Below are positions 7,117 to 22,930 of a DNA stretch of 64,000 nucleotides, in pieces (position 1 is the first letter of the stretch; each line of letters opens with the position of its first letter). Where the stretch lies: positions 62,001-126,000 of the forward strand of contig JACRNY010000001.1 of the NCBI GenBank assembly GCA_016214695.1, written 5' to 3'. This DNA is from Nitrosomonadales bacterium. GTDB lineage: Bacteria; Pseudomonadota; Gammaproteobacteria; Burkholderiales; Gallionellaceae. A program made the translations under genes and the position numbers. The notes under the pieces were generated by a model, which was given only the letters and a program-made list of their open reading frames with translations, searched no databases and had not been told where the DNA came from.

Positions 7117-7173
7117 ATCGCCTCTCGCCCAACTGTTTGACCCATCGAGTGTGACACCCTCGAACAATAAGGA

Positions 7174-7269
7174 GGCGAGCCTTACCCCCGGCACTTACAG
7201 ACATCAGCTGTGGCTGCTTCCTTCCGGACCTGACCAGGTTCACTGCGCTGCAATGCGGGGAGACCCGCC
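7174..7269 (-). ncRNA. ffs: Bacterial small SRP RNA (4.5S RNA)
   Basis: On the minus strand this region contains the universally conserved SRP core, including CAGGTCCGGAAGGAAGCAGC, the asymmetric loop and GGAA tetraloop that bind Ffh. The ends pair: GGCGGGTC near 7269 is complementary, with wobble pairs, to GGCTCGCC near 7174, giving a ~96-nt closed hairpin typical of Gram-negative 4.5S RNA. It lies just upstream of dnaX on the same strand, an arrangement common in betaproteobacteria. Exact ends are estimated from the pairing. Confidence 0.95.
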
Positions 7270-7320: not shown

Positions 7321-8847
7321 CTATATCTGCCTGACCGGGATCATCCCGATCCGCTTCTTCCATTCCGCCGGACCGATCTCATGCACCGAGCGCCCTTGCG
7401 TGTCGACCGCCACGGTCACCGGCATGTCCAGCACCTCGAACTCGTAGATGGCCTCCATGCCGAGGTCGGCGAAGGCCACCACTTTCGCGCTCTTGATCGC
7501 CTGCGCCACCAGATAGGCTGCGCCGCCGACTGCCATCAGATAGACCGCTGCGTGTTTTTTGATCGCTTCCAGACCGACCTTGCCGCGCTCAGCCTTGCCG
7601 ATCATGCCGATCAACCCGGTCTGCGCCAGCATGGTCTCGGTGAACTTGTCCATGCGTGTCGCCGTTGTCGGTCCGGCGGGCCCGACCACCTCGTCGCGCA
7701 CCGGATCGACCGGGCCGACATAGTAAATGAATCGACCGTTAAAATCCACGCCGGGCGGCAGTTTTTCGCCCTTTGCCAGCATCTCCACGATGCGTTTGTG
7801 AGCCGCGTCGCGCCCGGTCAGAAGTTTGCCGGACAACAACAAGGTCTCTCCCGGCTGCCACTGCGCGATATCGTCGCGCGTCACGGTATCAAGATTCACC
7901 CGCCGTGCATCCTCGGCCGGGTGCCAATGCACGTCTGGATAGTCCTCTATCTTCGGAGGCGTGAAGGTCGCCACGCCGCTGCCATCCAGTGCGAAATGCA
8001 CATGCCGCGTCGCTGCACAGTTCGGGATGATGGCTATGGGTTTGGAAGCCGCATGCGTCGGATAATCGAGGATCTTCACATCCAGCACGGTAGTCAGCCC
8101 ACCCAGCCCCTGCGCGCCTATGCCCAGCGCGTTCACCTTGTCGTAGATCTCGATGCGCAATTCCTCGATGCGATTCTTCGCCCCGCGTGCCTTGAGCTCG
8201 GTCATATCGATGGGCTGCATCAAGGCCTCCTTGGCCAGCAGCAGGGCTTTCTCGGCCGTGCCGCCGATGCCGATGCCGAGCTGCCCCGGCGGACACCAGC
8301 CCGCCCCCATGCCCGGCAGCTGGCTGACGACCCACTCCACCACATCGTCACCGGGGTTCAGCATGGCGAAGCGCGACTTGTTCTCGGAACCGCCGCCTTT
8401 GGCCGCCACGTCGACTTCCACCCTGTCGCCGGGAACCACCTCGAAATGCACGACCGCCGGCGTGTTGTCACCCGTGTTCTTGCGTTTGCCCGCCGGCTCG
8501 CTCACGATGGAAGCGCGCAATACATTGTCCGGCAGCAGGTAAGCCTTGCGCACGCCGGCATTCACCATCTCGGTGATGCTCATGGTGGCCCCCTCCCAGC
8601 GCACATCCATGCCTACACGCACAAAAGCCACCACGATACCGGTGTCCTGGCAGACAGGACGCTTGCCCAAGGCACACATGCGCGAGTTGGTCAGTATCTG
8701 CGCCATTGCATCCTTGGCGGCCGGCGATTCTTCGCGCTGATAGGCAGCGGCGACGGCCTGCACATAGTCCTGGGGATGGTAGTAGGAGATGAACTGCAGC
8801 GCGTCTGCGATGCTGTCGATGAAATCCTGTTGGCGGATAGCGGTCAT
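7321..8847 (-). CDS. Class I iron-sulphur fumarate hydratase
   Basis: A 508-residue class I (4Fe-4S, oxygen-sensitive) fumarase that hydrates fumarate to malate in the citric acid cycle. The alpha-type region (SRMCALGKRPVCQDTG, with a cluster Cys) and the beta-type region (GPTTATRMDKF) are fused as in E. coli FumA/FumB. Further cluster ligands are visible in PPGQLGIGIGGTAE and IIPNCAATRH. The ATG is preceded by GGAGTTCCAAC. It is read toward the SRP RNA gene and is divergent from rbgA. Assignment is firm; whether a class II fumarase also exists elsewhere is unknown. Confidence 0.95.
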   Translation of the reverse strand: MTAIRQQDFIDSIADALQFISYYHPQDYVQAVAAAYQREESPAAKDAMAQILTNSRMCALGKRPVCQDTGIVVAFVRVGMDVRWEGATMSITEMVNAGVRKAYLLPDNVLRASIVSEPAGKRKNTGDNTPAVVHFEVVPGDRVEVDVAAKGGGSENKSRFAMLNPGDDVVEWVVSQLPGMGAGWCPPGQLGIGIGGTAEKALLLAKEALMQPIDMTELKARGAKNRIEELRIEIYDKVNALGIGAQGLGGLTTVLDVKILDYPTHAASKPIAIIPNCAATRHVHFALDGSGVATFTPPKIEDYPDVHWHPAEDARRVNLDTVTRDDIAQWQPGETLLLSGKLLTGRDAAHKRIVEMLAKGEKLPPGVDFNGRFIYYVGPVDPVRDEVVGPAGPTTATRMDKFTETMLAQTGLIGMIGKAERGKVGLEAIKKHAAVYLMAVGGAAYLVAQAIKSAKVVAFADLGMEAIYEFEVLDMPVTVAVDTQGRSVHEIGPAEWKKRIGMIPVRQI

Positions 8848-18100: not shown

Positions 18101-18442
18101 TCAGACTGTTGCGCCCGCAATCAGCTTCTGCAATTCGCCCTGTTGATACAGATCCAGCATGATGTCGGAGCCGCCGACCAGCTCACCGTTGATGTAGCAC
18201 TGCGGAAAGGTGGGGAAATCGGCATAGAACTTCAGGTAGTCATACGCCCCCTTGTCTTCCAGCACATTCACGGCGACATACTTTTCGACGCCGCATGCCT
18301 TCAGCACCTGTGCCGCACGGCCGGAGAACCCGCATTGCGGGAACTGTGGCGTACCTTTCATGTAAAGCACGACGGGGTTGCCCGTCACGGTCTTTCTGAT
18401 CTCTTCCAGTGCAATCGTCTTTTCGTCCACGTTCTTCTCCAA
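18101..18442 (-). CDS. grxD: Grx4-type monothiol glutaredoxin
   Basis: A 113-residue monothiol glutaredoxin. The CGFS active site occurs in FPQCGFSGRA, with the glutathione-binding TFPQCYINGELVGGSD downstream. Such proteins bind a bridging 2Fe-2S cluster with glutathione and pair with BolA proteins in iron-sulphur trafficking. The gene follows a BolA-family gene by nine bases, matching this partnership. Start ATG is preceded by GGAGAA. Confidence 0.96.
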   Translation of the reverse strand: MEKNVDEKTIALEEIRKTVTGNPVVLYMKGTPQFPQCGFSGRAAQVLKACGVEKYVAVNVLEDKGAYDYLKFYADFPTFPQCYINGELVGGSDIMLDLYQQGELQKLIAGATV

Positions 18443-19487: not shown

Positions 19488-19781
19488 TCAGACGCAACCT
19501 GTCGGCTTGGGCATGCCACCGTATTTGGTGATAGGCTTCATCGGCCCGGTCATCCACAGGTCGAACACCTCTTTCTGGTCTTGTTCGATGTATTTTGCGA
19601 ACTTGCGGATCGGCGGCACCGAAGCGAACTCTTCGAAGTATTCGCGCGCCTTCATGATCTGTTCCCATTTCTTGTCGTTCAATTCGTAGCCGTCTTCTGC
19701 CGCCATCGCACGACCGACCTCTTCAGTCCAGTCGCTCATATCGACGAGGTAGCCATCACCATCACGTTTCGGGAGTTGCAT
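19488..19781 (-). CDS. tusE: DsrC/TusE-family sulphur relay protein
   Basis: A 97-residue DsrC/TusE protein. ATG 19781 is used since AAAGGTG lies eight bases upstream; the GTG three codons earlier does not allow a ribosome site. The C-terminal arm ends PKPTGCV with the conserved penultimate Cys that carries persulfide. The second Cys found eleven residues earlier in true dissimilatory DsrC is Thr here, so this is a TusE-type or related relay protein rather than the DsrAB partner. TusE passes sulphur to MnmA for tRNA thiolation. It has a strong promoter with an IscR-like overlap. Confidence 0.85.
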   Translation of the reverse strand: MQLPKRDGDGYLVDMSDWTEEVGRAMAAEDGYELNDKKWEQIMKAREYFEEFASVPPIRKFAKYIEQDQKEVFDLWMTGPMKPITKYGGMPKPTGCV

Positions 19782-19817
19782 GATTAACACCTTTCATTTC
19801 AGTGGAAAGAGGTGTGC

Positions 19818-20636: not shown

Positions 20637-21002
20637 CTACGCGCGGGTATGGCGCTCAAGTTCCAGATGAGCGAACGGGTTGGCACGCTTGACCTCGCCC
20701 GTAAGGTAGTCACGCACCGCTTTGCGCGGCTCGCTTTCGCCGCAGGTGATCACCTGCACGCCGCGCTGGGCCATTTTCGCCACCATCCCTTCCCCGGCGC
20801 TAGCCGTCAGGATCACATCCACATCATCCAGCGGATGCGGGCCGCCCGCGAACTCATGGAAGGTCATCTCCACGGGAAGATCCAGCCACACCACTTTCGG
20901 CTCATCACAGGGCGTACCGACATCAAATATGATGAAGCGGCGACTTCTGCCGGCATGACCGGTCACTCTCTTGAAGTTCTGACTCGTCACGGCGATCTTC
21001 AT
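20637..21002 (-). CDS. NifX/NafY-like dinitrogenase cofactor-family protein
   Basis: A 121-residue protein of the dinitrogenase iron-molybdenum cofactor biosynthesis family (NifX, NafY, NifB C-terminus). The core reads MKIAVTSQNFKRVTGHAGRS, then VDVILTASAGEGMVAKMAQRGV and ITCGES, the usual GHxGRSRxF and GxGxxxxL-type loops. The start ATG 21002 has AAGGAG before it. Family members bind cofactor precursors or simple Fe-S/Mo clusters; no nitrogenase genes are in view, so a general Fe-S carrier role is as likely. It follows the YfhL ferredoxin and both lie beside a sigma-54 activator, a typical nif-style setting. Confidence 0.82.
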   Translation of the reverse strand: MKIAVTSQNFKRVTGHAGRSRRFIIFDVGTPCDEPKVVWLDLPVEMTFHEFAGGPHPLDDVDVILTASAGEGMVAKMAQRGVQVITCGESEPRKAVRDYLTGEVKRANPFAHLELERHTRA

Positions 21003-21028
21003 GTCCCGCTCCTTGCAGTTGGTTAAGC

Positions 21029-21280
<252 letters not shown>

Positions 21281-21342: not shown

Positions 21343-21447
21343 AAAAAAAAAACCTGTGGCGCTATGCGCCACAGGGCTAGGCTGAAAGGAGGGAGTATCC
21401 AATCAGAGAGGAGCCCAACCGGCACTGCAGCAACCGGCTGTTAGGCT
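21343..21447 (-). ncRNA. Putative sigma-54-dependent small regulatory RNA
   Basis: Between the ferredoxin gene and the divergent activator, the minus strand shows a complete sRNA plan. A perfect sigma-54 promoter (21458-21474) predicts a start near 21447. From there AGCCTAAC (21440-21447) pairs fully with GTTGGGCT (21412-21419). A pyrimidine-rich single-stranded part follows, with CTCCTCTCTG and ACTCCCTCCTTTC, the latter complementary to Shine-Dalgarno sequences. The end is a 10-bp perfect hairpin (21353-21375) and ten T residues. No open frame of note lies inside. The transcript itself is inferred. Confidence 0.65.
21353..21375 (-). terminator. Intrinsic terminator of the sRNA candidate
   Basis: CCTGTGGCGC pairs perfectly with GCGCCACAGG around a three-base loop, followed on the minus strand by ten T residues (21343-21352). 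This is among the strongest terminators in the window and ends no protein gene. Confidence 0.88.
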
Positions 21448-21457
21448 ACATCTATAC

Positions 21458-21474
21458 AGCAATCACCGTGCCAA
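21458..21474 (-). promoter_or_regulatory. Perfect -24/-12 sigma-54 promoter
   Basis: TTGGCACGGTGATTGCT on the minus strand matches the consensus TGGCACG-N4-TTGC exactly, with GG and GC ten bases apart. It points at the sRNA candidate and is divergent from a sigma-54 activator gene, its probable regulator. Confidence 0.85.
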
Positions 21475-21616
21475 TCGACCCGAACTATAAATTATCCATT
21501 TCTTTCATAATGATATGAATCTGCACTCAGTCAAGAAAAGTAATGCGAATTGATTTGTCCGCCATTTTTGGCATATCATCACTGCCATTACCGCCACAAT
21601 TAACATATCACCTATC

Positions 21617-22930
21617 ATGCCCACCAAAGTGCCGGCCGACCTGCTCAACCTGCTGGACAGCTTCCCCGACCCCAGGATCCTGCTCGACGCACAATACCGC
21701 ATCATCGCTGCCAACGCCGCTTACCGCCGTGAGTTCTCCCACAAAGGCAAGATCGAAGGAGAGTATTGCTACGTCCTTTCCCATCACTACGACAAACCCT
21801 GCGACCAGGCCGGCGAGAATTGTCCTCTGCGCGCCTCGATGGAAAGCGGCGAACCCAGCCGCGTGCTGCATGTGCATCACACCTCGGCCGGGCGCGAACA
21901 TGTGGAAGTGGAAATGGTCCCGGTCAGGAACGAAGCCGGCAACACGGCCTACTACATGGAGACCATGCACACGCTGCACCACGCAAGCGATGGCATGCGC
22001 GAACGGAAGATGGTCGGTTACTCGCGCCCGTTCAACCGCATGCTGGAACTGGCCAAGCGTGTCGCCTCGCATGAGAGCTCGGTACTGCTGCTGGGCGAGT
22101 CGGGCACCGGCAAGGAACTGGTCGCACACGCCATCCACGACATGAGCCCGCGCGCTTCCGCCCCTTTTGTGGCGCTGGAATGTTCCGGCCTGACCGAGAC
22201 CCTGTTCGAGAGCGAGATGTTCGGCCACGAGAAAGGCGCATTCACCGGCGCGGTCGGCAGCAAGATCGGACTGGTGGAAGCGGTGCGCGGCGGCACGCTC
22301 TTTCTGGACGAAGTAGGCGACATCCCGCTGTCCCTGCAAGTGAAGCTGCTGCGCCTGATGGAAGCCGGAACCTACCGCCGCATCGGCGGCGTGGAACCGT
22401 TGCGCGCCGATTTCCGGCTGGTTGCCGCCACGCACCGCGATCTGGCCGAGATGGTGAAAGAAGGGACCTTCCGGCAGGACCTGTATTTCCGCATCAACGT
22501 CTTCCCCATCCAGCTGCCTCCGCTCAGGGAGCGCATGGAAGACCTGCCGATGCTGGTCAAGAGCCTGCTGACACTGCTCGAGCCGGTGCGCAAGATCAAG
22601 CTCAGCGAAGAAGCCTTGTCCATACTGATGCAGCATGATTTTCCCGGCAATGTGCGCGAACTGCGCAACGTGCTGGAACGCGCACTCATCATGGTCGACG
22701 GCAACACCATCCAGCCCCAGCACCTCTATCTGGACTCCATGCGGAGCGGACAGCAAAACAACCCCACAGCGAATCCCGCGGAGGAGATCGCGCCACTGTC
22801 CACGCTGGAAAAACGTTACCTCGAGTGGGCCGTCTCAAACTTCCGCGGAGACCGCAAGACACTGGCAGAACGGCTCGGCGTCAGCGAGCGCACCCTGTAT
22901 CGAAAACTTCGGGACGCTGCCTCGACCTGA
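21617..22930 (+). CDS. Sigma-54-dependent activator with a Cys-containing PAS domain
   Basis: A 437-residue enhancer-binding protein. The N-terminal PAS-like domain (~5-125) carries three Cys (51, 62, 69) in the pattern C-x10-C-x6-CPL, suited to redox or metal/haem sensing. The AAA+ domain (~135-365) has Walker A GESGTGKE, the sigma-54-contacting GAFTGA loop and Walker [13 protein letters not shown] Fis-type HTH (~395-435) ends the protein. It lacks a receiver domain, so the PAS probably gives the signal. It is divergent from a perfect sigma-54 promoter about 145 bases away. Three CATATCA half-sites (near 21511 reversed, 21572, 21604) are possible binding sites. Confidence 0.92.

Follow-up and report, generated by a model that had tools for sequence, protein, structure and literature searches.

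The closest described counterparts of the locus analysed here are two RpoN-driven RNAs of Pseudomonas. NrsZ (~226 nt, under NtrC/RpoN) and CrcZ (~407 nt, under CbrB/RpoN) are encoded in the ntrC-PA5126 and cbrB-pcnB intergenic regions, respectively. In the available portion of the source, both answer to two-component activators and CrcZ is described as an Hfq decoy (PMC8395346). Another point of comparison is NfeR1/alpha-r14 (cuckoo RNA) of alphaproteobacteria, which has three hairpins that each carry CCUCCUCCC, with LsrB as its activator and NtrC as its repressor (PMC10746234). On the protein side, FisR, which activates genes of sulfide oxidation in Cupriavidus and Acinetobacter, is presented in the accessible text as a one-component sigma-54 activator that is divergent from its target and senses sulfur via cysteines (PMC7315123, PMC12170894, PMC8469610). 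Cupriavidus FisR relies on regulatory cysteines and the FisR of A. baumannii is without them, and CydAB is described as refractory to sulfide (excerpts of PMC7315123).

The present locus lies in a 64,000-nucleotide stretch of a Gallionellaceae genome, referred to here as the window (Table 1). The initial annotation had likened its logic to that of CrcZ and NrsZ. What is shared is a sigma-54-type promoter on an RNA gene that adjoins an activator gene, here known from sequence alone. The likeness does not extend to the two-component activators or to the decoy role of CrcZ, and the RNA of the window is shorter (~105 nt) and paired with a divergent one-component Cys-PAS activator. Like NfeR1/alpha-r14 (as given in the accessible part of PMC10746234), it is a short RNA with an exposed CU-rich motif, here a candidate anti-Shine-Dalgarno sequence, but it carries a single linker motif and a single variable loop, and its promoter is of the sigma-54 type. 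It was not assigned to the alpha-r14/cuckoo RNAs, since it has no three CCUCCUCCC hairpins. The activator resembles FisR in having a sensor domain, a sigma-54 AAA+ domain and a Fis-type HTH in a one-component, divergently encoded protein; however, FisR drives sqr/pdo, whereas the activator of the window faces the RNA, followed by a ferredoxin and a NifX-like gene.

The analysis supports the prediction of an uncatalogued RNA gene that carries a sigma-54 promoter and a terminator of its own and forms a pair with the divergent activator. The sequence marks of sigma-54/EBP-dependent small RNAs of the CrcZ, NrsZ and Qrr kind (promoter, upstream palindromes and linked activator) are present. At the RNA locus, no Rfam family reaches its threshold. 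The best match was suhB/mmgR (RF00519), rejected at 22.1 bits (E 0.019) against a gathering score of 41, and in 20 homologous loci no family attained the gathering score at the RNA position. Literature searches returned nothing on this RNA and, in weak searches, no small RNAs described in Gallionellaceae. The proposal of an undescribed EBP-sRNA module agrees with the lack of an Rfam match and with the conserved layout of RNA and activator. The analysis points to a putative stress-response RNA in Gallionellaceae and one related group, and offers a concrete candidate regulatory RNA for these iron-oxidising bacteria. Activator-plus-RNA pairs are an established type; a one-component Cys-PAS version with this RNA would be new.

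Table 1 Coordinates of the predicted RNA, its putative control elements and the flanking genes within the window
Feature	Position	Strand	Evidence
Sigma-54 promoter TGGCACGGTGATTGCT, perfect TGGCAC-N5-TTGCT	21458..21473	-	Pattern match and homologous copies
Predicted small RNA, ~105 nt, non-coding	21343..21447	-	Fold z -3.7; covariance-model matches
5' hairpin, sequence differs among members	21412..21447	-	Fold
CU-rich linker CUCCUCUCUGA; core CUCNCUG, candidate anti-Shine-Dalgarno seed	21403..21413	-	Core in 25/25 copies
Second hairpin, CUCCC loop at 21391-21395	21382..21406	-	Compensated pair changes
Intrinsic terminator, 10-bp stem and T10	21343..21375	-	Terminator scan; pair changes
YfhL-type 4Fe-4S ferredoxin, downstream of RNA	21029..21277	-	NF033683, 135 bits
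NifX-like Nitro_FeMo-Co domain protein, frequent neighbour	20637..21020	-	PF02579
One-component sigma-54 activator: PAS_4, AAA+, Fis-type HTH; Cys51, Cys62, Cys69	21617..22930	+	Domain search, alignment
Palindrome CGCCATTTTTGGCA, likely activator site	21560..21573	.	One mismatch to TGYCAN4TGRCA
Weaker second palindrome TGCCATTACCGCCA	21583..21596	.	Palindrome scan; two mismatches

Distribution and conservation

A DNA search recovered relatives in 17 of 61 genomes (the window's own included), all of the same genus, with three of the 17 showing the terminator only in this first search. A first covariance model was built from seven members and comprised the linker, hairpin 2 and the terminator, leaving the promoter out. 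At a score of at least 55.9 bits, 19 of the 158 genomes searched in the window's family had a match, with 21 copies in all; 17 of these carriers belong to the window's genus and two to another, and two genomes (G010 and G025) hold two copies each. A second model, built from 23 copies, matched 4 of 22 genomes of a second family. Two further diverged copies, in G412 and G335, were recognised by eye. Conservation of the layout in relatives had been set beforehand as the test that could refute the proposal, and the whole array is kept in 25 model-found copies from two families. Promoter, palindromes, RNA layout, their conservation, the co-inheritance of the activator and the changing downstream genes can all be read directly from these genomes.

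Weaker matches were set aside. These include matches at 21-30 bits in 8 of 27 family genomes (seven only re-scored) and 10 of the 18 genomes that matched in an order-level scan of 399, the other eight being known members. The ten scored 26-33 bits and are mostly terminator-like hairpins; one genome, G123, appears in both weak sets. On inspection, two of the ten had a near match to a sigma-54 promoter, but 170-250 bp away. A DNA pattern scan of genome contigs returned 24 stretches, 12 of which are members, from genomes labelled Sideroxyarcus, Sideroxydans, Gallionellaceae, Nitrosomonadales or Gammaproteobacteria bacterium. The remaining 12, at no more than 17.3 bits or unlisted, were taken as chance.

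Promoter and RNA structure

The perfect -24/-12 promoter reported at the outset is borne out. In the 2.66-Mb genome, the strict pattern TGGCACN5TTGCW has seven matches against two for a reversed control. A promoter with at most one mismatch precedes every one of the 25 model-found copies (16 perfect), compared with a mean of 0.05 in 25 for shuffled upstream sequence, at 41-62 bp from the modelled part. Its recurrence is separate evidence, since the covariance model was built without it. The predicted start at 21447 also fits the spacing usual for sigma-54 promoters.

For the predicted 105-nt RNA, the folding energy is -43.3 kcal/mol (z -3.7), and none of 200 shuffles was as good. However, much of this score is the terminator's, as the body without it reaches z -1.3 in the window copy, so the fold by itself proves little. 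Across copies, the body ranges from z -0.14 to -4.76, and several are only modestly better than shuffles. The terminator, found just as first annotated with its ten T residues, is likewise unremarkable alone, since 1.1 such sites were expected in the 1401 bp scanned and two were found. It is strong in every model-found copy, with T-runs mostly of 7-10. No start codon position is common to all members (possible starts were listed per copy), in agreement with the claim that no protein is encoded.

Other parts of the original description needed adjustment. A 5' hairpin is present, but its stem is 8+4 bp rather than 8 bp. The CU-rich single-stranded segment exists as CU-rich motifs, but divided, with CCUCU in a short linker and CUCCC in the loop of hairpin 2. 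The suggested CU seed has also shifted: the CUCCC loop occurs in 16 of the 25 model-found copies and is missing in 9, whereas the linker core CUCNCUG is present in all 25 (next base A in 23), which makes the linker the better candidate for function. The 3' CUGA of the linker is also the start of hairpin 2, and the mean unpaired probability of the linker is 0.39-0.95 in 24 copies (0.75 in the window copy). In the two diverged copies recognised by eye, the linker reads CACCCUG.

The stem of hairpin 2 is kept while its letters change; for instance, one pair occurs as CG, UG, AU and UA, and is unpaired in 6 of 25 copies. Among 19 pairs, two-sided changes were counted in 12 cells, where shuffles gave 4.0 and none of 500 reached that value. 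However, the pairs with such changes numbered only four, where shuffles gave 2.5 and 48 of 500 were as high, in an alignment that leans to its own covariance model.

The divergent activator and its likely binding sites

The Cys-bearing PAS activator is encoded in the opposite direction, as originally noted. Cys51, Cys62, Cys69 and His56 are invariant in all 55 aligned activators. Orthologs at 77% identity or higher occur in 16 of the 158 family genomes, all with the RNA; three genomes (G012, G023 and G029) have the RNA without an ortholog, and 139 have neither. In the second family, orthologs at 75-82% occur in 6 of 22 genomes, again all with the RNA (four by model, two by eye). In each of the 22 genomes examined that have a close ortholog, the RNA adjoins it (20 by model, two by eye). 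The activator flanks 15 of the 20 first-family regions, with G012, G023 and G029 lacking it next to the RNA. In G012 and G023, a threshold of E 1e-100 was reached by a single activator, encoded ~1 kb from cydA, which may control the RNA in these genomes. The 19 activators that flank the RNA (one with an RNA identified by eye) group in a single clade of a 55-member activator tree, with support of 98/92, sister to two activators of another family, which face cydA. From this joint occurrence, RNA and activator are inherited together.

The palindromes between the two genes are likely the activator site. Within 170 bp upstream, 25 of the 26 RNA loci have a TGYCA-N4-TGRCA motif with at most one mismatch, whereas mononucleotide shuffles gave a mean of 0.32 and a maximum of 2. 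Its centre is mostly 93-96 bp from the promoter, and a second palindrome is often found near 116-128. The strict palindrome has 12 sites in the window's own genome against 5 in a control, a count from which the site in the window is excluded by its one mismatch.

Related activators extend beyond the RNA-bearing clade. Sister activators at ~52-69% identity belong to the protein family of the window's activator and mostly have its palindrome, along with a sigma-54-type site in divergent orientation; they differ in that their promoters face oxidase or other genes. Many face cydP-cydAB, and others face octaheme-cytochrome-like, NifX-like or transporter genes (names partly by eye). The most distant (41%) faces an SQR-like gene. 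Of 36 sister activators, 33 have a palindrome upstream, where shuffles gave 0.78; two of these 33 have no site other than one that overlaps the promoter. The RNA model had no match at the 36 sister-activator loci. An annotated example of the family adjoins CydP/CydB in Pseudoalteromonas. No literature on a link between Cys-PAS activators and cydP-cydAB was found in our searches. A Cupriavidus relative yielded no annotation, and none of seven marker proteins lies beside it. Cys-PAS activators that face cydP-cydAB-like genes and share palindromes recur in many families of the order (L095-L102, L107, L136-L143, L150 and L155-L157).

Proposed mode of action and competing explanations

We consider it probable that the locus encodes a sigma-54-dependent, terminated small RNA that is switched on by the divergent one-component activator and acts in trans. 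Its transcription, the binding of the activator, the signal, the trans action and the targets are all predicted. The activator would sense a redox or sulfur signal via its Cys-bearing PAS domain and bind TGYCA-N4-TGRCA ~95 bp (often also ~116-128 bp) upstream of the -24 element, driving the RNA from the sigma-54 promoter. The exposed linker CUCNCUG, joined in most members by the CUCCC loop, would then most likely pair with Shine-Dalgarno regions in trans, so that targets are translated less. Some co-regulation may come from transcripts that continue into the next gene. If this is true, a widespread and little-studied family of Cys-PAS sigma-54 activators would have a small-RNA arm, and one activator lineage would have exchanged enzyme genes for an RNA as its output.

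The RNA could also be the 5' leader of the next operon, with a conditionally read-through terminator (attenuation) and no role in trans. A same-strand gene usually does come next, which makes read-through into it possible. In the first family, this gene is a ferredoxin in 18 of 20 regions; in the second, where no ferredoxin was found, 4 of 5 regions have an alpha/beta hydrolase. Sister activators also appear to drive mRNAs directly from the same type of promoter. However, the next gene differs between the families, with a NifX-like gene in G335 and unrelated genes in G412 (aat-like, by eye) and at an orphan second copy in G025 (L066, about 7700-7840), which has no activator or ferredoxin and lies between rplQ-like and D-Ala-D-Ala carboxypeptidase-like genes (by eye). 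Downstream of the other first-family copy without a ferredoxin are genes for an unnamed small protein, a NifX-like protein and an octaheme cytochrome. As the next gene changes while promoter and terminator stay, the RNA looks like an independent unit. The uniformly strong terminator also counts against a leader, and folds and pair counts gave no sign of a conserved antiterminator, without a dedicated search for one. A leader is therefore considered unlikely, and a plain ferredoxin leader is not favoured as the main reading given the change of next gene between families. The ferredoxin and NifX-like setting emphasised by the initial annotation holds for frequent neighbours, but these are not constant partners.

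It seems distinctly improbable that the RNA works not as an antisense RNA but as a decoy, titrating either another RNA or, in the manner of CrcZ with Hfq/Crc, a protein. Hfq is encoded in all eight genomes checked, and the long T-runs would suit this role, as would the lack of specific pairing with the start regions of the ferredoxin, activator and NifX-like mRNAs. Against it, the RNA has just one or two short CU-rich motifs and by eye no repeated A-rich Hfq/Crc motifs, and the strict retention of the CUCNCUG core fits base pairing. A functionless chance run of promoter-like and terminator-like sequence has very little to recommend it: terminator-like sites are common here and the locus was chosen for its striking look, but the array recurs in two families and the RNA accompanies every close ortholog of the activator.

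Pairing predictions bear on the targets of the proposed trans-acting RNA. With start regions of the ferredoxin (n=18, median z 0.34), the activator (n=15, median z -0.14) and the NifX-like gene (n=2, median z 1.01), pairing was no better than with shuffles. The median pairing energy for 35 other start regions of the window was -13.6, compared with -12.1 for the ferredoxin. A genome-wide pattern of the linker complement followed by ATG matched 20 times, with two of the matches at a single place, and its reversed control once; the control is an unfair one because the pattern contains a Shine-Dalgarno sequence. By eye, two of the 20 precede long ORFs, which resemble genes for pyruvate phosphate dikinase and for a lipid A acyltransferase. 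The pattern yielded no clear target, and its matches were judged by eye to be near chance.

Proposed signal and origin, and genomic neighbourhood

The invariant Cys triad and the gene neighbours, including cydP-cydAB at sister activators, suggest redox or sulfane sulfur rather than nitrogen as the signal. The spacing of Cys51/62/69 may resemble that of C53/C64/C71 in FisR. A nitrogen signal is not favoured: with the nifX model, whose cut-off is 112, the NifX-like protein reached only 20.7. PDB sequence searches with the sensor domain gave no useful match. More tentatively, a sulfane-sulfur/redox activator descended from cytochrome bd regulators may have been rewired once to an anti-Shine-Dalgarno RNA, giving a sulfur-stress circuit in iron-oxidising bacteria, several of which are without the oxidase. 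We regard this fuller scenario as possible, with the balance somewhat against it. Of 14 genomes checked for CydA, 7 are without it, including that of the window.

Other genes recur around the RNA. Of 20 RNA regions, 11 contain an octaheme cytochrome of the tetrathionate-reductase family and 3 have an SQR-like gene nearby, with an SQR-type match below cut-off. In L075, L078 and L061, the RNA has genes for a [NiFe]-hydrogenase large subunit and an octaheme cytochrome as neighbours, no more than a few kb away. A small conserved protein is encoded near the RNA in both families (L165 7085-7537 and L059 8193-8597); a scan of the L165 protein found no Pfam or NCBIfam match. In the window, a DsrC/TusE-family protein (19488-19790, minus strand) and a monothiol-glutaredoxin-like ORF (18101-18442, minus strand, by eye) are located near the module. 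The window also contains a bacterial small SRP RNA (RF00169, 76.2 bits) at 7171-7269 on the minus strand.
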